This document shows, piece by piece, positions 13,583 through 30,352 of a stretch of DNA of 30,863 nucleotides. The stretch is from IMG/VR virus record IMGVR_UViG_3300048067_000077, positions 1-30,863 of that record; one strand, given 5' to 3'. The notes under the pieces were generated by a model. It was not told where the DNA came from, made no database searches, and saw nothing but the letters and a program-made list of their open reading frames with translations. How positions within the stretch are numbered: the stretch's first letter is position 1; every line of letters starts with the position of its first letter. Position numbers and translations under genes: made by a program. The stretch is from a virus.

Positions 13583-13611
13583 AGTGTTCAAAAATTTGAC
13601 AACTTACATAA

Positions 13612-13633: not shown

Positions 13634-13640
13634 CAAATGA

Positions 13641-13826: not shown

Positions 13827-13827
13827 C

Positions 13828-14768: not shown

Positions 14769-15228
14769 AATTTGGATTCGCTATACTTGGACATTCGGTG
14801 TTGATTTCACTTTTTTTAGTTGCCATCAACTCTTTTTCTGTTAGTGGTGAACCAGATGAAATCTCAACGCATCGCAACGCATTTGCAGTTGCTTTGTTAA
14901 TTATTCTTTGAATTGCTTTATCTTTTGCAATCGCAGTTTTACCAAAATCTCTACCACCTTTATTAAATCTATTATCTAGGTCACTTAATTCTTTTTGTAG
15001 ATTATTTGATAAAATAGTAAGTTTTTTATTTGTTTCTATAATTGATTGAAAATCTTGTTTTTGTTGTTCTATGACTTGTTTTTGTGATTCTACACTTTGT
15101 TCTAATAACACATTATTTGCTTTGAGTACAGCATTATCTGCACGAAGCTTGTAAACATATGCAACTGCACCACCTATACCAACAACCATAATAATAGTAA
15201 TAGCCATTTTTGCATAACCAAATATCAT
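14755..15228 (-). CDS. Rz-like inner-membrane spanin candidate (i-spanin)
   Basis: The 157-residue protein has an N-terminal anchor (ITIIMVVGIGGAVAYVYKL, about residues 10-28), a long coiled coil (VLLEQSVESQKQVIEQQKQD) and a C-terminal part with KAIQRIINKATANALRCVEI and a second Cys near the end (NTECPSIANPNYVSY). Anchor plus periplasmic coil plus Cys is the shape of phage Rz proteins that fuse inner and outer membranes at the end of infection. The lipoprotein gene next door overlaps it. With the two cell-wall hydrolases it completes a Gram-negative lysis set. Confidence 0.75.
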   Translation of the reverse strand: MIFGYAKMAITIIMVVGIGGAVAYVYKLRADNAVLKANNVLLEQSVESQKQVIEQQKQDFQSIIETNKKLTILSNNLQKELSDLDNRFNKGGRDFGKTAIAKDKAIQRIINKATANALRCVEISSGSPLTEKELMATKKSEINTECPSIANPNYVSY

Positions 15229-15915
15229 TTATCTAAACTCCGAATCAGATAAACCTCTAATTAATTTTAAAAAATTTTTAATTTGACTATTAGGAACATC
15301 TAATGTATCTGTTCCTATTTGTATCATCATTTTTTTACCACCAAATCTATCATCATCAAAAGATAATCTAACTCCACCTCTCATATATCTGTTTTCATCA
15401 AGTTCAAATCCTTCTTTAACTTTCATTCCCATTTTTTTTCGTAATGCATCTATTTCTTTTTTAATTGCATTTTGTTTAGGTGAACCACCAAGAGTTCTTA
15501 ATGCTTTATTTGTTAATTTAAGAAGTTGTAATCTTTGTTCTGGTGTTCCCTTTCCACCAAAAAACTTATCACTGTCATATTTTTCATCTACAAAATCTTC
15601 CATTCTAATTTTACCAAGTTTGTTTATATCAGATGCTTTATAATTGTGTTTTAACATAAGTCTTGACATTGCCATTGTACTAACAAAAGGTATATCTGCT
15701 TTATATAATTGAATTAAACCATCTTTATTTGAATCAATCTTATCAAATATTTTCATCAAAGGTGTTGGATTAATCTTTTTACCTTTTAAAGGTTCATATG
15801 CTTTTCTAAGTTTGTTAATCATATCATTACTAAATTTAGCTGCATTTAAATCAGCCATAGGTTTAGTAGTTAAATCTGCATAAGGAAAATTGTAATATTC
15901 TTTAAACTTTTTCAT
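15229..15915 (-). CDS. Virion/internal-type protein with an EF-hand-like loop
   Basis: The 228-residue protein begins MKKFKEYYNFPYADLTTKPM, a relaxed form of the capsid-targeting leader seen in its neighbours, though without the I/L-x-E cleavage site. Residues 61-72 (DSNKDGLIQLYK) resemble an EF-hand loop but have Lys instead of Glu at position 12. The rest is helical and basic (KKEIDALRKKMGMKVKEGFE), and the end (GGVRLSFDDDRFGGKKMMIQ) is beta-rich. It sits in the structural/internal gene block. Function unknown. Confidence 0.6.
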   Translation of the reverse strand: MKKFKEYYNFPYADLTTKPMADLNAAKFSNDMINKLRKAYEPLKGKKINPTPLMKIFDKIDSNKDGLIQLYKADIPFVSTMAMSRLMLKHNYKASDINKLGKIRMEDFVDEKYDSDKFFGGKGTPEQRLQLLKLTNKALRTLGGSPKQNAIKKEIDALRKKMGMKVKEGFELDENRYMRGGVRLSFDDDRFGGKKMMIQIGTDTLDVPNSQIKNFLKLIRGLSDSEFR

Positions 15916-15921
15916 ATCAAC

Positions 15922-17805
15922 CTACGCAAACTTCACTTGTTTCATTGCAAACTTTTGTAACTTTAAAAAGTCAGTAATTGTTCCGTTCATCAATTTTTCT
16001 ATTTTCTTTTTATTATCTGGTTTTACTGCATCATATACTTTCATAATTGCATTTGCAGTAAACAAGTCAACAGTTGCCTGTTTGTCTTTAAACTTAACTT
16101 TTTGATTTTGTTTTCTTTTCACAATGTTTTGTAAAACTTTTAAATTAGTTTCCACAAGTTCGTGTTCGTTTCCAAAGTCATTTACTTTTTCTAGAATAGA
16201 TGCAGTAAATGTTGTTTGAATTTCTAGTTCTTCTTTCAACCTTTTATTTAACATTCTATCTTCTTGTGGTATTTGATCTAGTTGAGGGGGATTTAATTCA
16301 GTAGGACTACCCATTGATGATTTACCAATAACTGTTCTTCCAAAATCGTTTACTTGTTTTTTACTACCTTTAACTCTTACATATTTTCCTAAGAGTGCAG
16401 CTTTTAAACCTAAACCCTTTGCACCATTAAATACTTTAAGTCCCATAACACTATCTTTTGTTTTAAGTGTCATAACTTCTTCTGTTATTTCCATTGTTTC
16501 TTCCTTGACTGTGTGTTCGTATGCTGGTTGTATTGCTAATAAACCTTGTTTAGATTTAGGAACATTCATCATTTTAATTGCAATTTGTTTTGCTTGGTTT
16601 ATGTCTTTTACTTTATTTAAAGGAATTTCTACTTTCTTACCACCATAAAATGCAAGAAATCCAGCTAGTTTTTTCTCATTCATCATAGGTTCTTCCTTGA
16701 ATGTAATTTGATTAGGGTCTGACACACCAAATTTTTTTAAGATTGCATCTATTTTACTAGGATTAATTTTCATCTTTATAGGGTCATACTCACCCTTACC
16801 AGCCCTACCAGTACCTAATTTAATTGGTTTAACACCCATATTCATAAGTGTTTTAACTAACAACATTGCAGTTCTGTCATTAGTAAAATCTGCAAGTCTA
16901 TTTAAGATAACACTTCTTGGGTCAATTTTACTATATGCTTTCTTTTGTTTTTTATATGGAAAGTCATCCAATCTGCCTGGTGCATCATCTAATTCACCAG
17001 CAAGTGCAGCTATATCATCACCTAATTCATCATCTGGAATATGTGTATCTACAAAATCATATGCTTGTTTTGCATTAGGTTTTTTCTTAAAAAACTTAGT
17101 TAATTCATAACCAGATTTGTTTGATACTTCTGGGTTTCTATTGAAAATACCACTAGACATAGTTCCTTCTGTAATCTCTTCTACAACTTTTGCACTTTTA
17201 AAACCTATGAAGTTTTTTATATCAGCAACTTCTCTACCAATATCAACATTTTTACCACCATCAAGTGTTACTGAATCATCACTCATATTCTGTGTTATTT
17301 TGATTCGCTGATTTGGTCTACTCTTTTTGTTAATTAGATTTATATGGTTTACAATTTTTTGTATATCTCTGTCAACATTTCCTCTATTAAGTTTTATCTC
17401 TACTTTTTTCATTTCTTCAAGTTCAACTTCTTCTGCAAGAGACCAACCTTTTGATGTGTATTGTTTCAAATCTTTTTTATCAACTACGATAACTTTATTA
17501 TTTTTTACAACCATAACTTCTTTACTAGGATTAATTAATTGTCTAGGTTGTTTTACTTTTTCATCAAGTTCAACTTCTTCTGAAACTCTTCTTGCTTCCC
17601 TTTGTTTCAGTATTCTTTGAACAAATTTCTTTGCAATAGATGTTCTACCATCATATAATTTTTTCTTTTTCTTTTTCATAGCAACTGTTGGGTCATCACC
17701 AGTGGCTGCAACACCAGCAGTAGATGTTGTCGGTGCATCTTCTTTTACATCTTTTTCTGGGAATCCAGTGAAAGGGTCTACTCTTACATATTTTTTCTTA
17801 TCCAT
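15922..17805 (-). CDS. Large modular virion-associated protein (627 residues)
   Basis: The protein joins several modules. The N-terminus (STAGVAATGDDPTVAMKKKK, then YDGRTSIAKKFVQRILKQRE) matches the opening of T4-like cyanophage structural proteins. Middle parts include KIVNHINLINKKSRPNQRIK and FVDTHIPDDELGDDIAALAG. The C-terminal module, NLKVLQNIVKRKQNQKVKFK then ATVDLFTANAIMKVYDAVKP, also recurs in cyanophages by memory. Acidic linkers with repeated EEVELxE motifs separate the modules and may be processing sites for the prohead protease. Charged residues dominate; no enzyme motif is visible. A role as prohead core or packaged internal protein is inferred. Confidence 0.65.
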   Translation of the reverse strand: MDKKKYVRVDPFTGFPEKDVKEDAPTTSTAGVAATGDDPTVAMKKKKKKLYDGRTSIAKKFVQRILKQREARRVSEEVELDEKVKQPRQLINPSKEVMVVKNNKVIVVDKKDLKQYTSKGWSLAEEVELEEMKKVEIKLNRGNVDRDIQKIVNHINLINKKSRPNQRIKITQNMSDDSVTLDGGKNVDIGREVADIKNFIGFKSAKVVEEITEGTMSSGIFNRNPEVSNKSGYELTKFFKKKPNAKQAYDFVDTHIPDDELGDDIAALAGELDDAPGRLDDFPYKKQKKAYSKIDPRSVILNRLADFTNDRTAMLLVKTLMNMGVKPIKLGTGRAGKGEYDPIKMKINPSKIDAILKKFGVSDPNQITFKEEPMMNEKKLAGFLAFYGGKKVEIPLNKVKDINQAKQIAIKMMNVPKSKQGLLAIQPAYEHTVKEETMEITEEVMTLKTKDSVMGLKVFNGAKGLGLKAALLGKYVRVKGSKKQVNDFGRTVIGKSSMGSPTELNPPQLDQIPQEDRMLNKRLKEELEIQTTFTASILEKVNDFGNEHELVETNLKVLQNIVKRKQNQKVKFKDKQATVDLFTANAIMKVYDAVKPDNKKKIEKLMNGTITDFLKLQKFAMKQVKFA

Positions 17806-18443: not shown

Positions 18444-18805
18444 TAAATATTCCTTAAAATACTTTCTACTTTTTCGTCATTCTCTATATTTTTTAACTCA
18501 CCTTCTGGAAGAATTTTTAAAAATTCCATAAATGGTTTTATATATTTCCATAACGAAGTTTCTAATTTAAATAATAAAAGTGTTGAACACGCATCTGCAC
18601 CAAAGACATTATTTAAAACAATTATGTGATTTAAAATCAATCGTTCTTTCAAAGGCCCATTGTCTTGATACTTTCTCAACAATCTCTTAATATATTTGAA
18701 TCTCTTCATATCATCAAGAAATTCTTTTTCATTATCCCCTTGAGGATTATTATAATGTTTCATCGCATACATCATAACATTATCAACAGTTATTTTCTCA
18801 AACAT
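18443..18805 (-). CDS. Conserved T4-like marine phage protein, 120 residues
   Basis: The protein begins MFEKITVDNVMMYAMKHYNN and continues EKEFLDDMKRFKYIKRLLRK, LKERLILNHIIVLNNVFGAD and LLLFKLETSLWKYIKPFMEF. These blocks match a small helical family found at this same position in T4-like cyanophage structural clusters, by memory. No enzyme motif is present. It is coupled to both neighbours by one-base overlaps. Function unknown; an assembly or neck-related role is possible. Confidence 0.7.
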   Translation of the reverse strand: MFEKITVDNVMMYAMKHYNNPQGDNEKEFLDDMKRFKYIKRLLRKYQDNGPLKERLILNHIIVLNNVFGADACSTLLLFKLETSLWKYIKPFMEFLKILPEGELKNIENDEKVESILRNI

Positions 18806-19236
18806 TATTTAATTTCGGCAGTGACCTTGAATTTTCCATTTTCTTTTTTTTCATAAACAAAATTAATGGAACGACCACCTTCAACTCTATGTGAAATACC
18901 ATCATCATTAACAAACTCATTGTGAGGTGTGTCAATGTCTTTACCAAATCTACCACCGAATTGTGTTAACGGTGCAGATATGTTTCCAGAATCTTCTACT
19001 ACATCAATATTTGGAAATGTTAATCCAATACTTGCAAGTCTTCTTCTCACAACACTAATAGTTTGTTCTGGTAACATATGATCCATTTCGGCAATACAAC
19101 CCAAAAATGAATTAAGTTTTCTAACAACACCATCATCAGACACATCAACCATATCGTGGTCGGAGTCGTGTTGTGCATTAGAGTTCGCAGGCTTCGGCCC
19201 TCGTAGTTCAGTAATATACTGTTTAAAATCTATCAT
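18805..19236 (-). CDS. Internal/virion protein with capsid-targeting leader
   Basis: The 143-residue protein begins MIDFKQYITE|LRGPKPANSN; the bar marks a predicted gp21-type cleavage after Glu10 (I-T-E). The first ten residues match the T4 internal-protein leader in spacing (M-x-x-F-x-x-(Y/F)-I-x-E). After a His/Asp-rich spacer (AQHDSDHDMVDVSDDG) come VVRKLNSFLGCIAEMDHMLP and VVRRRLASIGLTFPNI, conserved in T4-like cyanophages, and a beta-rich end (GGRSINFVYEKKENGKFKVT). It is likely packaged in or attached to the head. Function unknown. Confidence 0.68.
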   Translation of the reverse strand: MIDFKQYITELRGPKPANSNAQHDSDHDMVDVSDDGVVRKLNSFLGCIAEMDHMLPEQTISVVRRRLASIGLTFPNIDVVEDSGNISAPLTQFGGRFGKDIDTPHNEFVNDDGISHRVEGGRSINFVYEKKENGKFKVTAEIK

Positions 19237-19409
19237 TATGATTTCCCTAATTTATTTTTTTTCTTTGAACCATCAGCACGAGGAATTAAACCTCGTGCCT
19301 TTAGTCTTGCAAGAGCAGTGAAACCTATTTTTTCACCTCTCTTATATTTTTTCAACATAGTATCTAGATGGTCACCCATCTTTTTACTTTTCATCTTTAA
19401 GTCAGACAT
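19236..19409 (-). CDS. Small basic phage protein, 57 residues
   Basis: I start the gene at the ATG at 19409 ([20 protein letters not shown]), which forms TAATG with the preceding stop; the longer frame to 19466 adds a Cys-rich stretch read from the neighbour's coding strand. The body KYKRGEKIGFTALARLKARG then LIPRADGSKKKNKLGKS is strongly basic and recalls a short conserved T4-like cyanophage protein. It may bind DNA or act in assembly. No motif with a known function. Confidence 0.65.
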   Translation of the reverse strand: MSDLKMKSKKMGDHLDTMLKKYKRGEKIGFTALARLKARGLIPRADGSKKKNKLGKS

Positions 19410-19873
19410 TACTGAATGACAGTAGCAATACTTGTTGCGAAAGATGAAGTTGCAACTGCAGCCCAAGCAGTACCAGTATACATTAATGATACTGATTCAC
19501 CAGCGGCATCTAGTACAACAGTAGTACCAGAACCAACTGTGGCGGCAGGAGTTACAGTGATGTTATTACCAGCAGTAGTACAAATAATTGTCTTCAACTG
19601 ACCAGTTACACCAGCTGCAAGTGTTACAGTTACTGCACCACCAGATGAATCAACTGTTGAAACAGCAGTAGAAACTGAAACAGCAGTAGAAGTATTAGTT
19701 AGTGCTTCTGTACTGTTAGTTGCAATAAATGTTGGAATATAGTTAAATACATTCGCAGCTGAAATTTTCTTATTGATAGGTGTACCAGTTGGGTCATCTA
19801 CAATGTGAAATAAATCAGCAGTTGCGATACCAGACCCTAAGTCTGTTAACGCAGTAATTTTCTTATCAGCCAT
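19409..19873 (-). CDS. Beta-rich virion structural protein, 154 residues
   Basis: The protein begins [20 protein letters not shown] then [20 protein letters not shown], the opening shared by many phage tail-fibre-type and decoration proteins. The remainder is Thr/Val/Ala-rich beta sequence ([40 protein letters not shown]) with a C-terminal [17 protein letters not shown] like fibre end domains. It follows the repeat-bearing structural gene and a coiled-coil gene. A fibre or head-fibre part is likely; which one cannot be told. Confidence 0.72.
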
Positions 19874-19890
19874 ATTTTATCTCCTATGGT

Positions 19891-20127
19891 CTAAACCCCA
19901 GCAATAGTGTGGGGAATGTTACTGTCGGCATCAGAATTTTCATCTTTTCCGACATCAGTTTTCTCACCGAATTCATTACAAAGCGCTATGGCACCAGCGA
20001 TAGAGAATTTAGTTTGTTTCAACGACTCTACTTGTTTGAGTGCCTCTACAAGTTGATTCTCTACCTTTGATAATTCAACTTGTAATTCTTGTTTTCTCGT
20101 CTCAATATCTTTTAATTCCAAAGACAT
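19891..20127 (-). CDS. Coiled-coil protein of the structural block, 78 residues
   Basis: The first half (MSLELKDIETRKQELQVELS, KVENQLVEALKQVESLKQTK) is a strong coiled coil; the second (SIAGAIALCNEFGEKTDVGK) is less ordered and ends with an acidic tail. It lies between two structural genes with an AGGAGTATATT ribosome site. It may trimerise a fibre or act as an assembly chaperone; both are guesses. The codon use looks like its neighbours'. Confidence 0.6.
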   Translation of the reverse strand: MSLELKDIETRKQELQVELSKVENQLVEALKQVESLKQTKFSIAGAIALCNEFGEKTDVGKDENSDADSNIPHTIAGV

Positions 20128-20150
20128 AATATACTCCTATAATTTAGATT

Positions 20151-21671
20151 CTAGCTATCTGGTAGTGCGATATCATCAGCAGCATCACCAGAAATACTTG
20201 AAGCAGCAACTAGAGTTTCATATTGAACTCTACCAGCACGACCACCAGTACCTACTGTTTTCTTAACCCAACCTACATGGCTAAGTTCTGTGGTGTTACT
20301 ATCACCGTCATTACCTAAACCAGTTGAAGCTACAGCAGTTGCTGTTGTTGCACCAGTTACAATAGTAAATGTTTGAGCACTATGACCAGTACCAATATTA
20401 ATCGCAGTTCCACCTTCAGTAGCTGCAATCTTAAAGGTATCGTCAGTTTTATCTCTAACAAATACAGTTTGTCCGTTAGTTACATTGGTCATTAAAGTTC
20501 CACCACCTACTTGGTTGTAAGTGATTTGGTCAGCATCTGTTAGTCCGTGTCCAGTAAATGTGATTACATTAGTACCAGCATTTACATTACCAGTTGGAAT
20601 TGTCATTTTTGGTGCTTCAACTGTTACAGCTGGTGTAGATTGATAATCAGAACCTACTGCTGTTACAGTAATTGCAGAAACAGCTCCACCAGAAACTGTG
20701 GCAGTTGCAGTTGCAGTAGTACCAGTTAATGTTTGTGAGTTATTACCAACATTACTAGAACCACCAGTCATATCAAGTGCAGTACCAGCTTGTGCATTAG
20801 AAAGTGAACTTGCTAACTTAATAGTGTCTGCATCTACACGAATAACAAATAATTCAGTATCATCTGTAATGTTACCACTATTTTGTGCAAGATTAGTTCC
20901 ACCTTGACTATTATAAGTTATAGATGTACCAGTTCTCATATTGTGGCCTGTAATGGTAAATGTATCGTTTGCAAGTGAAACATTTGCAGTTGTAAGAACT
21001 CTTGCAGTTGGCCCTGCAACAGTAATAGTTGGTGCTTGTACATATCTTGCACCAGTAGTTGATGTTAATGCAATATCAGTCACATTATCAACACCAGCAA
21101 CAGATTCACCTTCATCTATACCAAATACAGTGCTATCAATAGTTCCACCGTGTCCGTTTATTGGTGGTCTTGATACAGTTGCGGCAACACCACTTTCTGT
21201 ACTTCCACCAAAATCAGATGTTAATGTCATACCAGTATTTGTTTCACCAATAAATGTTTGTGAATTATTACCAGTTCCAGTTATATTAATTACTGAACCG
21301 CCTTCTGTTGCAGATACATCTATTGTATTTGCATCGTGAACAGTTTTAACAAATACGATTTGTCCGTCTGTGATTCCAGCGATTGCAGTTCCACCAGCTG
21401 CACTATATGTGAGTGGTGTGTTTGCAGTATATCCGTGTGAAGTAATGGTAATTCTTTCATTACTTGCGTTTACAGCAGATGTAGCAACTGTTCTAGGTGG
21501 TGTAAGGTCTTTTACTCTCACTTTTTCTCCACCAGCTGTAGTGACTACATCACCGATTTTTACTTCGGTTTTGTATGCTCCACTTGCATTAGCTTGTACA
21601 ATCGCACTTCCATTCGTGTAAGTGTGAGTACCAGATAAAGCGGAGCCATCATTCATACTCCATAAACTCAT
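20151..21671 (-). CDS. Large beta-rich virion protein with three tandem repeats
   Basis: The 506-residue protein starts MSLWSMNDGSALSGTHTYTN and has three related units at about residues 66-140, 228-315 and 362-436. Each reads roughly (T)ITxHGx..xxxITYxxxGG, then DGQxVFVxxxxxDTxxxxATEGG and ends NxSQTF. The C-terminus (SHVGWVKKTVGTGGRAGRVQ then YETLVAASSISGDAADD) is highly typical of T4-like cyanophage structural proteins. No catalytic motif; a head decoration or fibre protein is likely. A late promoter (TATAAATA) lies 25 bases before the ATG, with AAGGAGAAAACA as ribosome site. Confidence 0.82.
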   Translation of the reverse strand: MSLWSMNDGSALSGTHTYTNGSAIVQANASGAYKTEVKIGDVVTTAGGEKVRVKDLTPPRTVATSAVNASNERITITSHGYTANTPLTYSAAGGTAIAGITDGQIVFVKTVHDANTIDVSATEGGSVINITGTGNNSQTFIGETNTGMTLTSDFGGSTESGVAATVSRPPINGHGGTIDSTVFGIDEGESVAGVDNVTDIALTSTTGARYVQAPTITVAGPTARVLTTANVSLANDTFTITGHNMRTGTSITYNSQGGTNLAQNSGNITDDTELFVIRVDADTIKLASSLSNAQAGTALDMTGGSSNVGNNSQTLTGTTATATATVSGGAVSAITVTAVGSDYQSTPAVTVEAPKMTIPTGNVNAGTNVITFTGHGLTDADQITYNQVGGGTLMTNVTNGQTVFVRDKTDDTFKIAATEGGTAINIGTGHSAQTFTIVTGATTATAVASTGLGNDGDSNTTELSHVGWVKKTVGTGGRAGRVQYETLVAASSISGDAADDIALPDS

Positions 21672-21695
21672 TGTTTTCTCCTTATAGTTTTATAA

Positions 21696-22223
21696 CTATT
21701 TATAACCTAATTTTTTCAATTCGTTTAATGTTGTACTCACAGACATATGATGTATTCCGATACCACCTTTTGATTTCCACTCTTTAATATTTTTAGCGTG
21801 GTCATCAATTAAAACATTAGGTTTATTGTTTGTCATTGCAAAATCTTGTTTTTGAGAACGCCTTACTAAATGTATACGGCTTCTCTGTGTTAAACTCAAA
21901 TTCTTTCTCAACCATTTCATTTTACCAGGCACACAATTACTATCTTTTGTTGAATATGCAGATAATATATGTGAACCATATTTATTAACGAAACTCCATA
22001 ATCTCTTTGCTCCAGGCATCCATTCTAAGTTTTCCCAAAAGGATTTATTCTTGTGAATAGTTGCCCATCTTTTTGCATTATCCATTTTTACAAAGGTTTG
22101 ACCGACTTCTTTATCGGCACCTCCTAAAAAATCAACCAACACCATATCCATATCGCAAAATAGTGTTGGTAATTCCTCTTTCTCGCTTAATGTAGAATTA
22201 TAAACATCATAAAAATTTTTCAC
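21696..22223 (-). CDS. HAD-superfamily phosphatase/nucleotidase-like protein (GTG start)
   Basis: The 175-residue protein starts at GTG 22223 behind an AGAGAGGTAAA ribosome site. Its core is a HAD fold: LFCDMDMVLVDF with nucleophile Asp24 and Asp26, FWENLEWMPGAKRL, a loop with Ser (LSAYSTK) and LIDDHAKNIKEWKSKGGIGI with Asp140-Asp141. That is closest in layout to 5'(3')-deoxyribonucleotidases. The leader MKNFYDVYNSTLSE (L-S-E at 12-14) resembles capsid-targeting leaders of the neighbours. It has its own strong sigma-70 promoter although it lies amid late-type genes, so it may be made early or from both promoter types. Substrate unknown. Confidence 0.75.
   Translation of the reverse strand: MKNFYDVYNSTLSEKEELPTLFCDMDMVLVDFLGGADKEVGQTFVKMDNAKRWATIHKNKSFWENLEWMPGAKRLWSFVNKYGSHILSAYSTKDSNCVPGKMKWLRKNLSLTQRSRIHLVRRSQKQDFAMTNNKPNVLIDDHAKNIKEWKSKGGIGIHHMSVSTTLNELKKLGYK
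21697..21704 (-). promoter_or_regulatory. T4-type late promoter (TATAAATA) for the repeat structural gene
   Basis: Minus strand TATAAATA sits at the end of the HAD-type gene, 25 bases before the ATG at 21671, with an AAGGAG ribosome site between. Spacing and target (a virion gene) fit T4 late promoters well. Confidence 0.7.
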
Positions 22224-22246
22224 TTTACCTCTCTTTTCATTCTGTT

Positions 22247-22274
22247 ATTATAACACACTATCGTAGCTTGTCAA
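22247..22274 (-). promoter_or_regulatory. Sigma-70-type promoter of the HAD gene
   Basis: Minus strand: TTGACA (22274-22269), 16-base spacer, TATAAT (22252-22247), with TGT immediately before the -10 (extended -10). Its transcript would carry a leader of about 18-20 bases including the AGAGAGG ribosome site. Confidence 0.78.
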
Positions 22275-22291
22275 CCCTATGCAGATTTTTT
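22269..22291 (-). repeat. Shared gene-end/-35 element, copy 2
   Basis: Minus strand AAAAAATCTGCATAG then GGGTTGACA: the Lys-Ser-Ala-stop end of the gene ending at 22277 plus the -35 box of the next promoter. It equals the element at 5354-5377 except for one G fewer. Confidence 0.6.
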
Positions 22292-23095
22292 TTCTTCTTT
22301 AGAAGTTTCAATATCTGACATTGGTTTACCAGTCATAGTTTTATTCATTTTTTTACTTTTGATAAGTTCTTTGTCTTTTTTGTCTTTCTTATGGTTTTCG
22401 TGTCCTTCTTCGTGAACTATTTCTAAGTCTTTAGTTGGAACTTGTTTTTCAATTCCGTGTTGAAACCAAATATCATACCATTCAACCATACCTTTTTTAT
22501 CTGGGTCGGCGTGCATTGAGTGTATTGTATTACCTCTACCCCATTTTTCGTGTACTACATTTTTTGCACACATATGCCAATGGTTGGCTGGGTTAGGTGA
22601 ATCTTCTAGTTTATTTTCTTCTAATGATTCTTTATAAACTCTTTTACCTTGACTATGAAGTTGTTTAGCAATTTTAGCATTAGGGGCAAAAATGTGATTC
22701 TTATTATTAGGCGTATTTGAATTATCTTTTTTAACCTTACCACCTTTAACAATAAATCTATCATTCTCATAAGCGTCAGATTCTTTTACTGAATCACTCC
22801 ATACTTTTTTTAGAGCATCTCTCATAGTATCAACTCTAAAATATGCGTTTTCATTCTTAGACATTTTTGATTCCTTTTCAGTTTCTTTTTTCATTGCTTT
22901 AGATATTGCTTTTCTTTTCTTGTGAAGAAATTTATCACTTGAATCAACATCTCCATCATTATCAATATCTTTATCTTTTCTATCGTCAAACTTTTTCTTT
23001 ACAGCGTCTTTATTTACTGGGTCTAATTTTTTCTCGTAAATAGATAACACGGCATTTTCCAAAGTTCCATTTTTTGTATCAAAATACTTTGTCAT
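22277..23095 (-). CDS. Virion-associated protein with a canonical EF-hand loop
   Basis: The 272-residue protein contains KKKFDDRKDKDIDNDGDVDS then SDKFLHKKRKAISKAMKK. The twelve-residue loop at 43-54 has Asp at positions 1, 3, 5, 9 and 12, a sound calcium site. A second conserved part reads ANHWHMCAKNVVHEKWGRGN, then GMVEWYDIWFQHGIEKQVPT. Both modules recur, from memory, in T4-like cyanophage structural proteins. The rest is charged linker. It ends KEEKKSA. Calcium binding could aid capsid core assembly. An internal or core protein is inferred from context. Confidence 0.68.
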   Translation of the reverse strand: MTKYFDTKNGTLENAVLSIYEKKLDPVNKDAVKKKFDDRKDKDIDNDGDVDSSDKFLHKKRKAISKAMKKETEKESKMSKNENAYFRVDTMRDALKKVWSDSVKESDAYENDRFIVKGGKVKKDNSNTPNNKNHIFAPNAKIAKQLHSQGKRVYKESLEENKLEDSPNPANHWHMCAKNVVHEKWGRGNTIHSMHADPDKKGMVEWYDIWFQHGIEKQVPTKDLEIVHEEGHENHKKDKKDKELIKSKKMNKTMTGKPMSDIETSKEEKKSA

Positions 23096-24150
23096 TAATT
23101 TTCTCCTTGTTTATCACGACTTGCATCAGTAACATCTTTAATTTTTGCTCTTTGCATAATTGTGTCGTGTTTATCTTTCATTCTCTCTTTTTCTCTATTA
23201 ATCAATTCTTTGGCGGCATCAGTAGCATCACCTTCCATCATACCAATATGCGATTGAACTCTTTTGGATTGACCTAAATGCATTTTAGATGCAGCTCTTA
23301 ATTCATCACAAATAGTATCTAGTGTTTTGTTTTCTAAATCTAATCTATCAATACGAACTGCCTGACTTAAATGTTTTTTAGATGCACCTTTAAGTTCTTC
23401 AACAACTTTTTTCATATCCTCTAAATCACCTTCTTTTTCCATAATAACACTTTCTTCAATAGGGTTCAGAATATAATCTCTCATTTTATTCATACTGTTT
23501 GATGCAACTGCAAGTTTATTAGTCCACCAAGTTGGTAGTGAACCTTCCTTGTCCATAGAGTTTAGTTTACTCATAATCTCATTTGCATCTTCAATAACTG
23601 TTTTACATTTTCTAATCATTGATGGAACATCACTATGTCCATCTTCATTAAGTTCTTCTTTTAGTGCCTTCTCTGTTTTCTTTGCAATATCTTGTCCAAA
23701 CTTCTTTGCAAGTGCAGACATAAGTTGTTTATCAAACTTCTTAACTTCAGGCCCCTTTTTAATACCTTTTTTTTCTAATTCACGATAATACTTAAATAAA
23801 GATGGTGATTTAATTTCAATTTTATTTGCAATTTCTATTCTTGCTTTCAAACCAAGTCCCTTTTCTCTAAGTTGTTTTGCTCTTACAACAAGGGCATCTT
23901 TTGTTGTTAATGACAATGACTGAGGATTCGTCATTGATACTTCATCAAGTTCAAAAGATTCTTTTTTTGCCATTTTAGTTGCAACTGCCATTTTAACTTG
24001 CATACCTTTTTCTTTACCATATCTTTTTTCAAAATCTTTTAAAGGTAAATCTTTTGCAATCTCTTCTCTGCGTTTCAACTCATTTGGAGTCAGTGTTCTT
24101 TCCCTAACTTGTTGATACATCTCTGTCATAGTTTTTCTATATGTTGTCAT
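23095..24150 (-). CDS. Virion/internal helical protein with a duplicated motif
   Basis: The 351-residue protein starts MTTYRKTMTEMYQQVRERTL, then LKRREEIAKDLPLKDFEKRY and KGMQVKMAVATKMAKKESFE. A middle module (NEDGHSDVPSMIRKCKTVIE, then GSLPTWWTNKLAVASNSMNK) is shared with T4-like cyanophage virion proteins. Residues 252-266 (ELKGASKKHLSQAVR) and 283-297 (ELRAASKMHLGQSKR) form an internal duplication. The protein is almost all helix. A role in the prohead core or as a packaged protein is likely; no enzyme motif is seen. Confidence 0.66.
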   Translation of the reverse strand: MTTYRKTMTEMYQQVRERTLTPNELKRREEIAKDLPLKDFEKRYGKEKGMQVKMAVATKMAKKESFELDEVSMTNPQSLSLTTKDALVVRAKQLREKGLGLKARIEIANKIEIKSPSLFKYYRELEKKGIKKGPEVKKFDKQLMSALAKKFGQDIAKKTEKALKEELNEDGHSDVPSMIRKCKTVIEDANEIMSKLNSMDKEGSLPTWWTNKLAVASNSMNKMRDYILNPIEESVIMEKEGDLEDMKKVVEELKGASKKHLSQAVRIDRLDLENKTLDTICDELRAASKMHLGQSKRVQSHIGMMEGDATDAAKELINREKERMKDKHDTIMQRAKIKDVTDASRDKQGEN

Positions 24151-24158
24151 ATTTATTC

Positions 24159-27035
24159 CTAATTATCAACCTTTGCACCTTTTCTCCACTGATAACAACT
24201 CCAGTATCGTGCCTTTGTTTTTGGGCCAGGATTATCACAATTATGTCTTGCTCTAAAACTCTTTAATCTGTTAGGGTCATCCCTTTTTATTTCCATATTT
24301 GGATCGCCGAAAGTCACTTTAACTACATTACCTTTTTCATTTTTCACATAAACACCAAATTTTTTATTACTTCCACTAGGTAGTCTAAATGGGTCATTTA
24401 ACTTAACTTTACGACCTTGATATTCAGATTCTACTATGTCTAATTTCTCTATATATTTATCTTCTAAATCATCTTTAGAAATCTTTGACCTCATAAGATT
24501 ATAGGTTTCTTGGAGTTTTTCTTCCCATTCATCTTTGTATCTTTCTTGATACTCTTTTCTAGTAGACGGTCTTTCAAACCAGTCTTGTATGTTGGATTCA
24601 CTCGCAACCTTTGACTTGACTGACTGTTCATAATCTTGGCCTGGTGTAACATCAAATGTATGTCTAGCATAAGGTTCTCCTATTTCATATGATTCTTTCT
24701 TCTTTTTCTTTTTAGATGCTCTTGCTTGTTTTTGTAAATCTGGGTCTGCTTTACCACCAGTTAACATTGAGTTCACTCTTGCAAATGCCCATTGTTGTGG
24801 AGTAGTGCCTGGTCTGTGTCCAGTTTTCCAAGCTGCAAGTCCTCTATCATAACTCTTCTTTAGAATACCATAAGGAACACCAGTTTGTTGTGATTTCTTA
24901 ACAAGACCAGCAATCTTCTCAGTAAGATTTACAGATTCATCTATTTCAAAATCAACTTTAGCTGCAAGGTCAGATGGTAATTTACCTTTTTTTACTAAAC
25001 CATTAATGTAATATGCAACATCTCTTGCATCAACACCTTTTACCATTTGTCCTAATGCTTGAGCAGGATTTCTATGTCCTTGTTTATGCATTTGTATGTA
25101 CATTTTAAGTATCCTATCATAACCTCTAGGGTGAGTCATTTGATGTATCTTATCATAGATTTTTCTATAATAAGGCATTTCTTTTATATCAGTTTCTTCA
25201 CCTTTTGCTCTTTGTAATTGTGCTGGTGTGGGTGCTCCCTTTTCACCTTTCTTTCTCATCTTCTCACCAGAACCTTGTTTTATTCTTTGTCTTTTTTTAT
25301 GAATGTTTGCCCATAAACTCTCGTCAACTTCTAATTGTTCTTTTAATGCCTTTAATAAATCTTTATATGATTTAGAAATTTTACTCTGAAATTTTTCTTT
25401 ATCAGATGCTTTTTTCATAGAATCATATTTTGATTGAACTGCTTGTGCAATCTTAGATGAAACTTTTACTTTCTTCTTATCCATAAATTGTACTGGAAAA
25501 TTACCTCGTAAAGATACAGACTTTCTTAACTGCATCATAATATTTTTATCTGCAGCTTTAATATCATCATCTGTTGCAAAATCATCAACATCTGCTGGGT
25601 CTATTCTTTTTTCTGAAACTTCACCATACATCTGTTTAAACTTTTTAGTATATTGTGATGGTTTAGTTTTCTTATCTTTATCACCAGGCGCTGGTTTGTA
25701 TGCATTTGGGTTATCATCGTCCATTTTCGCTCCCTTTGTAAAATGGGCATCTCTTGCCTTTTTAGTAGATACAGACATTCCTTTTTTATCACCTACACCT
25801 TTTGCATAATACTTTGCTGGTTCAGAGCCTGGACTGTCTTTTATATCTGAGTCTTGTTTTGTTTTTGTTATTTTTTTTGTTTCTTTTATTGAATGAAGAA
25901 ATGCTTTATGCACATTTTCACCATCTGTGTATTGCACATAGTTAGTACCTCTTCTAATTATCTCACCACTAGTTCCATCATTTATATTTTCTACTAAATC
26001 TCCGATTTGATAGATTGCACCTCTGACATATAAATCTCTTTCAATTTCTTCATCAGAGTATTTTGAATTCTCTTTTAAGTTCATACCTTTCCTCACATCC
26101 TTGAATAATTGATTACCATTTTTAAAACCTCGTGGTAATCCTTTTTGAAATGTATCATAATCATTATTAGTTGCAGCTGCCCTCATCTTAGATGCACTCA
26201 TTCCAGTAACACCTTCTGCATCTGGGTCTCTTTCGCCTGCACTAAAAATATTAATAGTATCAAAATCATAAAAACCGTGTCGTTTTTCTTGACCATTATA
26301 TGTTGTCAATAGTTTTTTAAACTCTGCAACTCTATCCGAACCTACCACCATATTTAATTCTACATAACCTTGTTGGTGAAAGTAAACTGCAATATCTAAA
26401 ACTGTTTTTAATTTGTTATTTGCGATTATGTTTCTTTTATGTTTTGGAAACATATCTCTCATATATGCAACTTTCTTTGCAAGTGGTAAAGGGTCTTTCT
26501 TATTGTTTTGAGAATGTGATGGGAATATATAATAGTCATCTCCACCAGCAATCTTCTTAACTTTTTCTATTAGTTTTTCGTGGCCAGTTGTTGGTGGATT
26601 AAATCTACCAAATGTAAATATAACTGATTCAGTTGCTTCTGAAAAAGTTCTAAACGATTCGTACTTAATAACCTTATTAGGTGTTTTGAAGTTTTGTTTT
26701 CTCATAATAGTCTTGTTTGTTACTTCTATTTCATTACCTTTTGTTTTAATAACAACTGGTAAATTTAAATTAGTTGACATATCTTTTAAAACAGCTTGTA
26801 TGTCTGGGTTGTTTATTATATTCTTTGCTTTGTTTTTTTGAATCTTCTTAAAAAACCTTTGTAATTCAGATACTTTTATCTCTGGACTATTTCTTGGGTC
26901 ATTCATTCTATCTACAAAGTGTTTAGTAAATTCTATATCAACTCCATATTTTTTTAATATTCTATCTGCAAATTTTTCTAAATCATTTATATCTTTTCTT
27001 GATACCTCTTCTTCTAATAACTCTCTAAGTTTCAT
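24159..27035 (-). CDS. 958-residue modular internal protein with cytidylyltransferase-like domain
   Basis: Modules in order: a leader, MKLRELLEE|EVSRK, with possible cleavage after Glu9; a small domain (about 20-125) with FTKHFVDRMNDPRNSPEI; a nucleotidyltransferase domain (138-320) with VIFTFGRFNPPTTGH, where TTGH (149-152) matches the HxGH-type site, and GMSASKMR (278-285). Next come an SH3/KOW-like unit (DLVENINDGTSGEIIRRGTN, 346-365), a conserved linker (ARDAHFTKGAKMDDDNPNAY), SLWANIHKKRQRIKQGSGEK (573-592), a DUF5824-like unit (GILKKSYDRGLAAWKTGHRP) and a C-terminal SFRARHNCDNPGPKTKARYW unit. T4-like cyanophages have the same modules, often as separate or differently combined proteins. 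It probably acts on nucleotide-linked metabolites or NAD; delivered with the virion by inference. Confidence 0.75.
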   Translation of the reverse strand: MKLRELLEEEVSRKDINDLEKFADRILKKYGVDIEFTKHFVDRMNDPRNSPEIKVSELQRFFKKIQKNKAKNIINNPDIQAVLKDMSTNLNLPVVIKTKGNEIEVTNKTIMRKQNFKTPNKVIKYESFRTFSEATESVIFTFGRFNPPTTGHEKLIEKVKKIAGGDDYYIFPSHSQNNKKDPLPLAKKVAYMRDMFPKHKRNIIANNKLKTVLDIAVYFHQQGYVELNMVVGSDRVAEFKKLLTTYNGQEKRHGFYDFDTINIFSAGERDPDAEGVTGMSASKMRAAATNNDYDTFQKGLPRGFKNGNQLFKDVRKGMNLKENSKYSDEEIERDLYVRGAIYQIGDLVENINDGTSGEIIRRGTNYVQYTDGENVHKAFLHSIKETKKITKTKQDSDIKDSPGSEPAKYYAKGVGDKKGMSVSTKKARDAHFTKGAKMDDDNPNAYKPAPGDKDKKTKPSQYTKKFKQMYGEVSEKRIDPADVDDFATDDDIKAADKNIMMQLRKSVSLRGNFPVQFMDKKKVKVSSKIAQAVQSKYDSMKKASDKEKFQSKISKSYKDLLKALKEQLEVDESLWANIHKKRQRIKQGSGEKMRKKGEKGAPTPAQLQRAKGEETDIKEMPYYRKIYDKIHQMTHPRGYDRILKMYIQMHKQGHRNPAQALGQMVKGVDARDVAYYINGLVKKGKLPSDLAAKVDFEIDESVNLTEKIAGLVKKSQQTGVPYGILKKSYDRGLAAWKTGHRPGTTPQQWAFARVNSMLTGGKADPDLQKQARASKKKKKKESYEIGEPYARHTFDVTPGQDYEQSVKSKVASESNIQDWFERPSTRKEYQERYKDEWEEKLQETYNLMRSKISKDDLEDKYIEKLDIVESEYQGRKVKLNDPFRLPSGSNKKFGVYVKNEKGNVVKVTFGDPNMEIKRDDPNRLKSFRARHNCDNPGPKTKARYWSCYQWRKGAKVDN

Positions 27036-27225
27036 TTCCCACCTCTACTATTGGTTCACTGCTAGATGTATCTATGTAATCACCTTTAGATGATTTCATA
27101 TATTTTCTCGTACTAACATCTTTTACCAACATACCATTTTTTAAAGTGTAAGTGATATACTTTGCAACAATTACACCTTCTTTACTTCTATTAATGTGTT
27201 CTTTCATAGGGCCATCTTCCATCAT
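27025..27225 (-). CDS. Small conserved phage protein, 66 residues
   Basis: The protein begins MMEDGPMKEHINRSKEGVIV, then AKYITYTLKNGMLVKDVSTR and KYMKSSKGDYIDTSSSEPIV. The GM-V-x-x-VSTRK-Y-x-x-x-GDYxDxxxxEP layout recurs in T4-like cyanophages. It overlaps the mega-protein start by 11 bases and the upstream basic protein by 4, so it belongs to the same late operon. No function known. Confidence 0.62.
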   Translation of the reverse strand: MMEDGPMKEHINRSKEGVIVAKYITYTLKNGMLVKDVSTRKYMKSSKGDYIDTSSSEPIVEVGNET

Positions 27226-27683
27226 TTTTTTGCTCTCATTTTTGCAATTCTCTCTCTGTCTGCAATTCTTACTTTTCTTTCTTGTTTCTTCGCAATCTTA
27301 TTAATTTTCTTTTTAACATTCGGTTTAGATAAAAAGTTTTGAGTTATCTGTGCTTTTCTCTGCATAGGTAAACTTCTATATGGAAGTTTGTATATCTTTT
27401 GCACTAACAAATCTATTGCTTTCTTTCTTGCAATTCTTTTAATTGCTTCTGGTTTTTTATACCTTTTAAGAGATTTCATTCTTTTCTTTAAAAACAATGC
27501 AGACTTAGCTCTTAACTTTCTTCCTGCTTTTCTTGCTCTTTGTATAAACTTAGAAATTGCAGTTACTTCATCAAGATTTTCTTTATCCATAATCTCAACA
27601 ACTTCTTGGTCAACAGAATACATATCTCTTACATCGTTATCCAAATCCATAACATACTTTTTTAACTCTGTAAATGTCTTCAT
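27222..27683 (-). CDS. Highly basic internal-type protein, 153 residues
   Basis: The protein starts MKTFTELKKYVMDLDNDVRD, a leader-like opening, then DENLDEVTAI-type sequence (KENLDEVTAISKFIQRARKA) and a very basic helical region (KSALFLKKRMKSLKRYKKPE, then KVRIADRERIAKMRAKK). About one residue in three is Lys or Arg. That composition recalls T4 internal proteins IPI-IPIII and DNA-compacting proteins. It is probably packaged with the genome and bound to DNA. There is no clear I/L-x-E site in the first twelve residues, so leader processing is uncertain. Confidence 0.66.
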   Translation of the reverse strand: MKTFTELKKYVMDLDNDVRDMYSVDQEVVEIMDKENLDEVTAISKFIQRARKAGRKLRAKSALFLKKRMKSLKRYKKPEAIKRIARKKAIDLLVQKIYKLPYRSLPMQRKAQITQNFLSKPNVKKKINKIAKKQERKVRIADRERIAKMRAKK

Positions 27684-28000
27684 TTGTTCATTTCCTTTGT
27701 TTTCTTTTTCATCTTCTCTATATAAGCACGATAGATTGCAGCCTCTTTAGTTTTACCAGCAACTTTTGCTCTTTGTTCCATTGCAATCGCAGCTTGTATT
27801 TTATGTGCGTGTTTTTTATCACTACTATTTATTTTCTTTATACTTGCCCTTGCAGTCTTTTCATCTTTAAATCCTAGTCCGTGTATTGTACCTTTAGGAT
27901 TCTCATCTGTATATAAATCAGAATGTTTATCAGACCCTGCTGGTTGACCTTTCTTTCTAGGTATTCTTGGTGCTTCTATAAATTGTTTAAATGTTTTCAT
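27680..28000 (-). CDS. Internal protein with capsid-targeting leader, 106 residues
   Basis: The protein opens MKTFKQFIEAPRIPRKKGQP; the first eight residues are almost identical to the T4 internal-protein leader MKTYQEFI. It continues SDKHSDLYTDENPKGTIHGL, GFKDEKTARASIKKINSSDK and KKHAHKIQAAIAMEQRAKVA, a domain common in T4-like cyanophages, ending in a basic helix. The leader strongly suggests entry into the prohead. The domain's biochemical role is unknown. It overlaps both neighbours by 1-4 bases. Confidence 0.72.
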   Translation of the reverse strand: MKTFKQFIEAPRIPRKKGQPAGSDKHSDLYTDENPKGTIHGLGFKDEKTARASIKKINSSDKKHAHKIQAAIAMEQRAKVAGKTKEAAIYRAYIEKMKKKTKEMNK

Positions 28001-29058
28001 TAAATCAATCCGTTATATTGCAATTTAAGTGAAGTAAATTTACCAAGTCTACCAAGTTTTGCTAATTTCTTACCAGCTCTTACACCAGAATCACTTCTAA
28101 TATTCATTTTAATTGTTTTCTTTTCCTCTGGTGTTTCAATATCAATTAACCACTCTTGAACTGAACTTTTATTTAAATATGCTTTAAAATTATTAATAAG
28201 TGGTAATAAAGATGCAAGGTCATCATTCTTTTGTTCTGCTGTTTTACCTACAGCTTTAACTAAAATTAATGGAATTTTTTCTTTTGCATCTTGTAAATTA
28301 AAATTATTTTTAACCCAATCTTTAAATTCATCTAAACTTAATGAATTTACTATATCGCAAAAATGTTCTCTACATACTTTTAACATTATAGTGTACAATT
28401 CATTTGCTCCTTTTTCATTTTCAACAAAAAAATCTAAGTATAATTGTCTAACACCATTCTTATTTGACATATAGTTATTTTTATTAGCAATACTATCTAT
28501 GCCAGGTATTTTTGAATAAACACTATCCCACAAATCATCCTCTAGTTTTTTAATCTCACTTTCTTTATTTAATTTTTTATATTGTGTACTTACATAACTA
28601 TTAAGTAATGGTTCTTTAGATTTCTTTTCACCAGCTTTTAAACTAACTCCTAGTGTATCTCCATTAGAAAAAAATATAAAAATATCACCAGCGTGATTTT
28701 TTGGAATACCAGATGGTTTTTGTCTATATCCCCAAACTACTTTTTTTATCTTTTTAGTTCTATTAATATCATACAAGTAATTTGTAATACCTATTGCATT
28801 TTCTATTTTTGTTTTTACTAGTTTTTCTGGTAATGAAGTCAATGAATCAATGACTGCAACACCAGCACTCTTATTTGCATCTACTACAAAAGAATTTTTA
28901 TCTTTTTTTAAATCTAATTTATATAAAAACTTTTTAAAATCTTCAACTGATGATGGTTTAAATTTTAAATTAAATGCAAGTGTTGGAAAAAGTTCTGTTA
29001 TTGATGCAGTTGCAGTAGTATCAACTCTTTCACTTATGAACTGTCTAAATCTTAACAT
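28000..29058 (-). CDS. Internal protein with leader and a possible PD-(D/E)XK-like nuclease domain
   Basis: I start it at the ATG at 29058 (352 residues: MLRFRQFISE|RVDTTATA, I-S-E at 8-10); a GTG three bases earlier would add one residue. The leader fits the gp21 rule. The central part VVWGYRQKPSGIPKNHAGDI then FIFFSNGDTLGVSLKAGEKK resembles the D...(E/S)xK strands of restriction-type nucleases, with Asp125 and Lys141 (ATG numbering). The C-terminus, IRSDSGVRAGKKLAKLGRLG, is basic. If active it could degrade host DNA when injected. The nuclease call is a hypothesis; the fold is not certain. Confidence 0.66.
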   Translation of the reverse strand: MLRFRQFISERVDTTATASITELFPTLAFNLKFKPSSVEDFKKFLYKLDLKKDKNSFVVDANKSAGVAVIDSLTSLPEKLVKTKIENAIGITNYLYDINRTKKIKKVVWGYRQKPSGIPKNHAGDIFIFFSNGDTLGVSLKAGEKKSKEPLLNSYVSTQYKKLNKESEIKKLEDDLWDSVYSKIPGIDSIANKNNYMSNKNGVRQLYLDFFVENEKGANELYTIMLKVCREHFCDIVNSLSLDEFKDWVKNNFNLQDAKEKIPLILVKAVGKTAEQKNDDLASLLPLINNFKAYLNKSSVQEWLIDIETPEEKKTIKMNIRSDSGVRAGKKLAKLGRLGKFTSLKLQYNGLI

Positions 29059-30296
29059 CACTTATCCCAATTCTTTATTGCAGTAAAGTTATTAAAACTA
29101 AACTCCATTCTATCAACAAGTTTTACGGCCTTACCATCATTATTAATTGCGACATAACCTTCTGGATTTGTAACCTTAAATCCATTTTTCGTTTTTATAA
29201 AGGTGTCCGTCAGTTGTTTAACTGAATTCAACTTTTTAACAATTAACATCTTTGCGGCCACAAGGGCTTGTTGAAAAGAAATGACACTTTCTATATTTCT
29301 GATATGTTTCTTAAACTCTCTCAGATACTCGTTCTTATTTCTTTCAATCTTTTCTTTTGCTCCGAGTGTCTTTACTTTGTCCTTATTCTTATCAAAATGG
29401 TTTGCAATATGGTCAAGATATCCTTGAGCGTGTTGCCTTACATTTTTGATAGTTTGTCCTTGTCTTACTTTTAAATTATTATATGTTTTCAGACTAGCAC
29501 CAGACAAATTCCCTACCATTGAATTTTGAAGTCTAATAAACTTCTCTAACAATGATGAATTTATTCGTCTAAAAATCTTACCAACTGTTGATAAGTATAA
29601 TGTTACTTCTTCTGTTTCTGATTGAGTAAAAGTTGCTTTACCAGAAACATCTTTAAATGAAGCATTATCCATCCATACACTATCTATATTTTTTAATCCT
29701 TTTATATCCACACCGAATTTTGCTGACATTGATGGCAAATTATCGCCTTCATAGGTGGTGTGCCATACAACTCCAATTTGTGATTTAGAGATTTGTCCAG
29801 CAAGTTCAGAACCCATAGGTGCAGCATAAACGATAGTGTTAGGCTGAAAAGAAATAAAGGTTTGTTCATCAATTTTCTCCTTTTTTAAATCTTTCTTGGT
29901 GAACATTAAATCACCTTGAATAACATTTTTAATTCCTAATTTTTTAAATTCTTTTAATGCGATTGCAAACTTGTCTTTTAAATCACCAGAAACATCTATT
30001 TCTGATTCTTCTTTATACAACTTTGGATTTACATTAAATACTGATTTCTTTGCGACAAAGAACTTGCCATCTGATGGGTCAATGCCTGCAAATATAGCAG
30101 GGGCCCCGTCCCACTTAACAGTCATATTAACTGAACCTTTAGATGACCCAGATAACATATCTCTTAATGATTGTAGAAAATTAATTGCACCTCTACCCCC
30201 ACCGACACCAAAGTTGAGTATCTCATCTTCCAAGTGTTCAAGGTGTAGATTTTTGCCTTGTTTATCTTCTAATAAAAATTCTTTAAATGTTAACAT
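29058..30296 (-). CDS. Internal protein with leader and ligase-like nucleotidyltransferase motifs
   Basis: The 412-residue protein begins MLTFKEFLLE|DKQGKNLH, with an L-L-E site at 8-10. Inside is a possible covalent-nucleotidyltransferase core: motif I TVKWDGAPAIFAG with Lys61 (KxDG), a motif III candidate VIQGDLMF (125-132), motif IV candidate NPEGYVAI (377-384) and motif V candidate KAVKLV (389-394). A long helical insert (about 235-355) separates III and IV, unusual for the superfamily. The gene may be the phage family known as DUF6267, by memory. It could be a packaged RNA or DNA ligase. Overlapping early and late promoters lie upstream. Confidence 0.68.
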   Translation of the reverse strand: MLTFKEFLLEDKQGKNLHLEHLEDEILNFGVGGGRGAINFLQSLRDMLSGSSKGSVNMTVKWDGAPAIFAGIDPSDGKFFVAKKSVFNVNPKLYKEESEIDVSGDLKDKFAIALKEFKKLGIKNVIQGDLMFTKKDLKKEKIDEQTFISFQPNTIVYAAPMGSELAGQISKSQIGVVWHTTYEGDNLPSMSAKFGVDIKGLKNIDSVWMDNASFKDVSGKATFTQSETEEVTLYLSTVGKIFRRINSSLLEKFIRLQNSMVGNLSGASLKTYNNLKVRQGQTIKNVRQHAQGYLDHIANHFDKNKDKVKTLGAKEKIERNKNEYLREFKKHIRNIESVISFQQALVAAKMLIVKKLNSVKQLTDTFIKTKNGFKVTNPEGYVAINNDGKAVKLVDRMEFSFNNFTAIKNWDK

Positions 30297-30324: not shown

Positions 30325-30352
30325 ACTATATTTATAAATTGAAATTTGTCAA
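30325..30352 (-). promoter_or_regulatory. Sigma-70-type promoter upstream of the ligase-like gene
   Basis: Minus strand: TTGACA (30352-30347), 16-base spacer, TATAGT (30330-30325). It overlaps a late promoter core, giving the operon possible early and late expression. Confidence 0.6.
30329..30336 (-). promoter_or_regulatory. T4-type late promoter (TATAAATA)
   Basis: Minus strand TATAAATA, 32 bases upstream of the ATG at 30296, between the -35 and -10 of a sigma-70-like promoter. It could drive the whole leader-bearing internal-protein operon (30296 down to 24159) late in infection. Confidence 0.7.

Follow-up and report, generated by a model that had tools for sequence, protein, structure and literature searches.

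T4-like leaders mark a cluster of predicted internal head proteins and their fusions in a fragment of a marine phage

Why should a series of genes in one phage cluster, with products otherwise unrelated, begin with nearly the same ten residues? The question is raised by IMG/VR record IMGVR_UViG_3300048067_000077, a fragment of 30,863 bases that was analyzed in full (the window). A preliminary description, made from the sequence alone, compared these starts with MKTYQEFIAE, the start of the T4 internal proteins, and proposed that the proteins are targeted to the head, cut by a gp21-type protease and injected with the DNA. That T4 start is prior knowledge and was not found in the literature searched. 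All open reading frames (ORFs) named in the description are present, on the minus strand, and its four best leaders, MIDFKQYITE, MKTFKQFIEA, MLRFRQFISE and MLTFKEFLLE, were confirmed. These four genes have the register of a T4-type capsid-targeting sequence (CTS): a leader in the T4 length range of about 10-19 residues, aromatic or hydrophobic residues at positions 4 and 7, I or L at 8 and Glu at 9 or 10; several neighbors follow it more loosely, with hydrophobic-x-Glu closing the leader directly ahead of the folded domain. The L/I-x-E motif closes the leaders of the four genes. Three of the four carry I/L-x-E with Glu10, as had been claimed; MKTFKQFIEA has Glu9 (F-I-E↓A; the arrow marks a presumed or predicted cut). 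The genes with leaders are as follows.

29058..30296, minus strand: DUF6267 protein, 412 aa, with KWDG and EGYV motifs (Pfam PF19782, E=4.5e-98)
30267..30296, minus strand: leader MLTFKEFLLE of the DUF6267 protein, predicted cut before D11
28000..29058, minus strand: nuclease-like protein, 352 aa (phrog_2496, E=1.2e-55), with invariant D125...G137-S139-K141
29029..29058, minus strand: leader MLRFRQFISE of the nuclease-like protein, predicted cut before R11
27680..28000, minus strand: basic protein, 106 aa, leader MKTFKQFIE↓A (27974-28000)
24159..27035, minus strand: 958-aa mosaic of a leader, a 116-aa module, a nucleotidyltransferase (CTP_transf_like) and further modules including DUF5824 and EYQG
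27009..27035, minus strand: leader MKLRELLEE of the 958-aa protein
23095..24150, minus strand: 351-aa protein, leader MTTYRKTMTE (24121-24150), internal FELDE↓V at residues 66-70
21696..22223, minus strand: 5'-nucleotidase-like protein, 175 aa (phrog_2643, E=4.3e-30; Pfam NT5C below cut-off)
18805..19236, minus strand: 143-aa protein, leader MIDFKQYITE (19207-19236), found in 11/12 distinct homologues

In T4, CTS residues 4 and 7 govern targeting and residues 8 and 10 processing, which is inhibited by Asp10 (PMC9026906), and gp21 cuts after L/I-x-E. T-even internal-protein genes are recognised by their leader; IPI-IPIII otherwise share nothing (PMC12373910). By the DUF6267 protein, the nearest annotated isolate is Methylophilales phage Melnitz (63.9% identity), followed at a greater distance by Pelagibacter phage HTVC008M and cyanophages. 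Blocks syntenic with the window were located at Melnitz 12203-23656 and HTVC008M 103767-116426.

A strict T4-register pattern was counted in the 53 cluster genes of the window, Melnitz and HTVC008M and in the 400 other genes of the same genomes. Seven cluster genes matched (0.18 expected from shuffled N-termini), compared with four genes elsewhere (1.0 expected); since the leaders were already known when the pattern was composed, the Fisher p = 5e-5 for this difference is descriptive only. The window's matches are exactly the four best genes of the preliminary description, and an enrichment against other genes, of the kind that it had named as a check, is seen in these three genomes. The residue that follows the CTS core, M-x(1-4)-[FY]-x-x-[FYLIH]-[ILVFM]-x, was Glu in 62 and Asp in 4 of 116 cases, against background frequencies of 7.9% for Glu and 4.9% for Asp; related IMG/VR loci supplied the 1133 deduplicated N-termini for this count. 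With a loose leader regex the background is high (15 matches in Melnitz, 7.6 expected), and such a regex was never used as sole evidence. Raw [ILVFM]xE counts were rejected as evidence, the density ratio being 1.21 in cluster and other genes alike.

The loose pattern was then counted by gene family among deduplicated members in 99 related IMG/VR loci. It occurs in 7/7, 11/12, 18/23, 8/11, 5/8, 4/8, 7/14, 6/13, 6/13 and 5/13 members of ten cluster families, which is 50-100% in seven families and 38-46% in three more. Four other cluster families have low shares (17-29%: 2/7, 1/4, 2/9 and 1/6), and several further ones have no member with the loose leader. Outside the cluster, the leader is found in 0% of the replicative helicase, RecA and DNA polymerase families and in 14-17% of three others. 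MazG proteins (4/9) are a false positive in which the regex matches MazG's own domain sequence. The Glu10 of the DUF6267 leader is invariant in 10 homologues, while the rest of the leaders differs. Among the looser starts proposed earlier, those at 24159 (MKLRELLEE) and 21696 (22182-22223, ending STLSE↓KEELP) are supported by relatives; at 27222 the site lies later, and 15229 is a weak case. The leader pattern was seen in 7/14 distinct homologues of the nucleotidase-like protein, some of which have called starts that are too short or internal. MTTYRKTMTE at 23095, which had been missed, is supported by relatives (7/7 distinct homologues).

The leader ends were compared with capsid cleavage sites of sister phages. 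In Melnitz the capsid site AFLSE↓AAP corresponds to the leader MQGFKTFLSE↓AKVK (TFLSE↓A), and the protease starts with YITE↓A; in S-CREM2 the capsid site LLTE↓AP corresponds to the nucleotidyltransferase leader MKNFSSFLTE↓A (FLTE↓A). Both capsid sites are presumed, placed by position and resemblance to T4, and the protease was taken from annotation. The agreement bears on the possibility that the leader is an uncut docking peptide for assembly or another partner, with hydrophobic-x-Glu as part of an amphipathic helix and the virion proteins intact. T4 targeting and processing are indeed separable, Asp10 proteins being packaged yet unprocessed (PMC9026906), and the HTVC008M nucleotidyltransferase has a leader-like start without Glu. 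However, Glu is strongly preferred over Asp (62 to 4), leader ends agree with the presumed capsid site, and the site is kept at fusion junctions (see below), where an N-terminal signal would be useless. We therefore regard an uncut docking peptide as unlikely.

Homologues of the nucleotidyltransferase were detected by mass spectrometry (MS) in virions of S-SM1 (PMC3037559), S-SZBM1 (PMC9146016) and S-CREM2 (PMC10665884), and an NMNAT-like protein was reported in S-SCSM1 virions (PMC9602691). The detected nucleotidyltransferases carry the leaders MKKFSAFLNE↓A (S-SM1_190), MRFRQFIIE↓A (S-SZBM1_140) and MKNFSSFLTE↓A (S-CREM2 gp154). Outside the cluster, S-CREM2 gp136 (L111:7302-8015), a virion protein encoded between terminase genes, has the T4-type leader MQTFSMFFSE↓D.

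The cluster is preceded by a T4-type late promoter:

30329..30336, minus strand: TATAAATA, 40 nt ahead of the cluster's first gene

The same sequence lies 47 nt ahead of the first cluster gene in Melnitz and upstream of it in 32/51 deduplicated related loci (1.6 expected); it was not found upstream of the HTVC008M first cluster gene. The motif is not enriched above chance across the whole window, so it is the position of the promoter that counts. This position suggests late expression of the cluster together with structural genes.

Could these be late-expressed proteins that never enter the virion, detected by MS as carry-over, with starts that are similar through common ancestry or duplication of the N-terminus? 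Several homologues are enzymes usually termed auxiliary metabolic genes, the S-CREM2 authors acknowledge contamination, and the S-SZBM1 DUF6267 protein both lacks a leader and is missing from the published virion table. On the other hand, the nucleotidyltransferase was detected in several independent virion studies, late promoter sequences are present, and the leaders differ in length and sequence with Glu kept. Such an explanation appears very improbable. The head-targeted protein set proposed in the preliminary description is upheld by family-specific leaders, by their agreement with the gp23-type site presumed in sister phages, by late promoters and by the virion MS published for leader-bearing homologues of one protein; head targeting by T4-like leaders is strongly supported.

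What the preliminary description overlooked is the mosaic build of the 958-aa gene: elsewhere its modules form separate and often leadered genes. Its nucleotidyltransferase was identified with PHROG (E=1.5e-93) and with Pfam CTP_transf_like above cut-off. Residues 11-126, 129-472, 470-632, 682-947 and 820-958 match separate or different genes of Melnitz and HTVC008M. The following leader-like strings and candidate sites lie inside the protein.

26637..26663, minus strand: embedded leader-like junction YESFRTFSE↓A, residues 125-133
25611..25619, minus strand: candidate site VSE↓K, residues 473-475, where the module common with Melnitz 17131-18519 starts
25320..25328, minus strand: candidate site VDE↓S, residues 570-572
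24936..24944, minus strand: candidate site IDE↓S, residues 698-700, with LTE↓K (704-706) next, at the DUF5824 module
24429..24437, minus strand: candidate site IVE↓S, residues 867-869, ahead of SEYQGRKVKLN

The position of YESFRTFSE↓A corresponds to the free N-terminus MKKFSEIIE↓A of the Melnitz enzyme gene. Internal nucleotidyltransferase joins in relatives of the window read YESFRTFSE↓A, ESVTFRKFNE↓K or ESVTFRKLME↓K, and in the relatives L015 and L098 MKLRNLLE stands immediately ahead of the nucleotidyltransferase core. Of about 50 distinct nucleotidyltransferase starts from IMG/VR loci and Melnitz, nearly all place hydrophobic-x-Glu 8-12 residues ahead of the FGRF core; HTVC008M departs from this, and cyanophage leaders lie farther upstream of the core. 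The 116-aa module is free-standing with a leader in L077, L168, L188, L193 and L195, is fused to the nucleotidyltransferase in the window, L022 and L123, and is fused to DUF6267 in L040, where the join is LSFEQFIKE↓D. A stretch homologous to the 106-aa basic protein precedes the nucleotidyltransferase within one ORF in L020 and L022. Junction peptides of fusions include YESFRTFSEATES and KLSFEQFIKEDKAG. In L142 the 116-aa module is joined, at VLEE↓G, to a downstream sequence similar to the kinases described below.

Sites at module boundaries were counted over contexts with different upstream sequence, the expectation being taken from random positions in the same ORFs; the counts are descriptive. 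[ILVFM]xE was found at the DUF5824 boundary in 17/17 contexts (1.7 expected), and a site was present at the EYQG boundary in 14/14 (1.9 expected), at the nucleotidyltransferase boundary in 21/28 (3.6 expected), at the ADR/EFT boundary in 17/28 (3.3 expected) and at a fifth boundary tested in 17/21 (1.0 expected). A further pattern, [FVY][EQDR][LI][DE]E, occurs 7 times in clusters (0.4 expected) and 6 times elsewhere (3.5 expected). Fusion junctions thus often retain the leader or an L/I-x-E site, which suggests that the fusions are internal polyproteins cut by the protease.

The junction motifs may instead be ordinary acidic linkers or N-caps, with the fusions remaining uncut multidomain internal proteins that lose only their N-terminal leaders. 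This competes with the polyprotein part alone, and its probability overlaps that of the overall explanation. The nearly invariant, domain-like DUF5824 and EYQG motifs and the many internal junctions that lack a site speak for it; the joins, however, keep whole leader-like strings (SFRTFSE, TFRKFNE, SFEQFIKE) at positions that in sister phages hold a start codon and leader, and [FVY][EQDR][LI][DE]E is in excess in clusters. We consider acidic linkers a rather doubtful account of the joins.

Several points weigh against targeting and processing by leaders. The patterns, module boundaries and offsets were all set after inspection of the data. The HTVC008M cluster has no strict leader match, and its nucleotidyltransferase start lacks the Glu. 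S-SZBM1_139 and S-CREM2 gp155 and gp156 are found in virions with no canonical leader, so a leader is not required, and, as the S-CREM2 authors note, contaminants can persist in virions purified on CsCl. Inside long ORFs the boundary site is present in only 6/11 nucleotidyltransferase and 11/21 ADR/EFT contexts, and the DUF5824 and EYQG sites may belong to the modules themselves. Cleavage itself was not observed; we infer it, as we do leader-driven targeting, injection and a role in the host.

With these points considered, a CTS-type late operon of internal proteins, with targeting and processing by leaders, remains the likely explanation. The N-terminal leader would bind the prohead core and take the protein into the head, where a gp21-type prohead protease would cut after hydrophobic-x-Glu and release the mature protein, as with T4 IPI-IPIII. 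At gene fusions the leader or an L/I-x-E linker is often retained, and the protease probably cuts the fusion into modules too. The mature proteins, mostly basic, would accompany the packaged DNA and probably pass into the host together with it. Packaging of most leader-bearing proteins is very likely and leader removal is likely; internal cutting of fusions is somewhat favored, and so is injection into the host with DNA, a reasonable extrapolation from T4. More speculatively, the leader could mark the recombination unit of a shuffling kit of head-targeted modules in marine T4-like phages: fusions would keep embedded leaders, the protease would cut the polyproteins, and a nucleotide- and nucleic-acid-handling set would be delivered as infection starts.

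Further genes of the cluster are as follows.

27222..27683, minus strand: 153-aa protein, acidic over its first 39 residues, up to NLDE↓V, and very basic in the remainder (net charge +37)
22277..23095, minus strand: 272-aa protein with an EF-hand-like DIDNDGDVDSSD module, leader not canonical
15922..17805, minus strand: lysine-rich protein, 627 aa, with EVELDE↓K (ELDE 17560-17571) and EVELEE↓M (residues 127-131)
15229..15915, minus strand: 228-aa protein, leader-like start MKKFKEYY lacking the Glu site, GFELDE↓N (ELDE 15394-15405), a weak case

The 27222..27683 protein, with its candidate site ENLDE↓VTA at residue 39, is homologous to Melnitz 14525-14917 only from residue 37, about the NLDE↓V site onward; the Melnitz family has a leader in 18/23 distinct members. 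The EF-hand-like module (residues 21-70 of the 22277-23095 product) is common to several cluster proteins of these phages, and strings similar to DIDNDGDVDSSD occur in S-SM1_191 and Syn9_185. The 15922..17805 product is partly homologous to Melnitz 22687-23205. Predicted mature cluster proteins are mostly basic, that of 18805-19236 being an exception.

As to the enzymes named earlier, the nucleotidyltransferase stands on its profile and the nucleotidase on PHROGs, with Pfam below cut-off; 'ligase-like' and 'nuclease-like' go back to short motifs only. Residues K61, D63, G64, E379, G380, K392 and R396 are invariant across 16 DUF6267 proteins, and we take K-x-D-G, E-G-x-V and the downstream K and R to be suggestive of the ligase/capping superfamily. 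The protein would thus be ligase/nucleotidyltransferase-like by motif only, and the D...SxK protein may be nuclease-like, again on short motifs only. Predicted models had a mean pLDDT of 59 (DUF6267) and 74 (nuclease-like protein), residues 1-14 of the latter being of low confidence (pLDDT < 50). Foldseek searches with both models gave no match at E <= 0.001, with weak matches only for the nuclease-like protein, so no fold is claimed for either; sequence searches of PDB revealed nothing convincing. In loci L029, L042, L053 and L056 the first cluster gene encodes a relative of the nuclease-like protein whose start is longer, about 30-35 residues, and likewise ends FLTE, LFTE, LLSE or FLSE ahead of the domain. 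AAA_33/Zeta_toxin-like P-loop kinases with leader-like starts are encoded in Melnitz (L006:18855-19523, MKTFAELQE↓G) and HTVC008M (L010:9562-10224, MIPFILKE↓G).

Elsewhere in the window, the 20151-21671 product is a possible homologue of the S-SZBM1_136 / S-SM1_195 family, by position and the start MSLWSMND only; S-SZBM1_136 is a strongly detected virion protein, and TATAAATA stands at 21697-21704, ahead of the window gene. A peptidase-like protein at 491-961 (SGYRSPDLNAKIGG...QHCKGQAVDLE) resembles a portion of the baseplate hub/tail lysozyme protein of Melnitz. PADLOC returned a single negligible match. By ORF content, the 30.9-kb window contains neither a capsid nor a prohead protease gene. 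Overall, the window probably represents a late operon of internal head proteins from a marine, Kyanoviridae-like T4-like phage.

If this is true, the T4 internal-protein strategy reaches an abundant marine phage group, a simple sequence rule finds head-packaged proteins among 'hypothetical' and 'auxiliary metabolic' genes, the cyanophage cytidylyltransferase is to be reinterpreted as internal cargo, and cargo delivered early in infection is directly testable in Melnitz, S-SM1 or Syn9. A search of open-access literature joining 'cyanophage' and 'capsid targeting' retrieved one T4 review only; subscription papers were outside the search, so priority is uncertain.

Among known systems, the ejection proteins of giant phages SPN3US and phiKZ are likewise packaged and have a prohead-protease motif ending in Glu, with some internal sites, but several of their propeptides exceed 100 residues and their motifs are A-x-E or S-x-E (PMC5694885). 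Polyvalent proteins (Iyer et al. 2017, PMC5512222) are also multidomain, with unrelated activities, are encoded near virion genes and are proposed to be delivered with DNA. The 958-aa protein similarly joins several unrelated domains in one polypeptide (CTP_transf_like, DUF5824 and others). A zincin-like metallopeptidase is frequent, though not universal, in polyvalent proteins; no Pfam peptidase family was found in the 958-aa protein at E <= 0.1, and here the prohead protease would do the processing. The cyanophage cytidylyltransferase/NMNAT-like T4-GC190 is a homologous enzyme from the same neighborhood, present in virions of several cyanophages; in the parts of those accounts available to us leader and processing are not discussed, whereas leader and fusions are described here. 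The closest parallel is with T4 IPI-IPIII and Alt and their gp21-cut CTS: a 10-residue leader with positions 4, 7, 8 and 10 conserved in kind, L/I-x-E, a late promoter, and mostly basic mature proteins of otherwise unrelated sequence. Unlike in T4, a nucleotidyltransferase, a nucleotidase-like protein and DUF6267 are the cargo of one cluster, and leader-like strings recur within fused multi-module proteins. Judged by the sequence features that can be compared, the cluster would work like the T4 CTS system.

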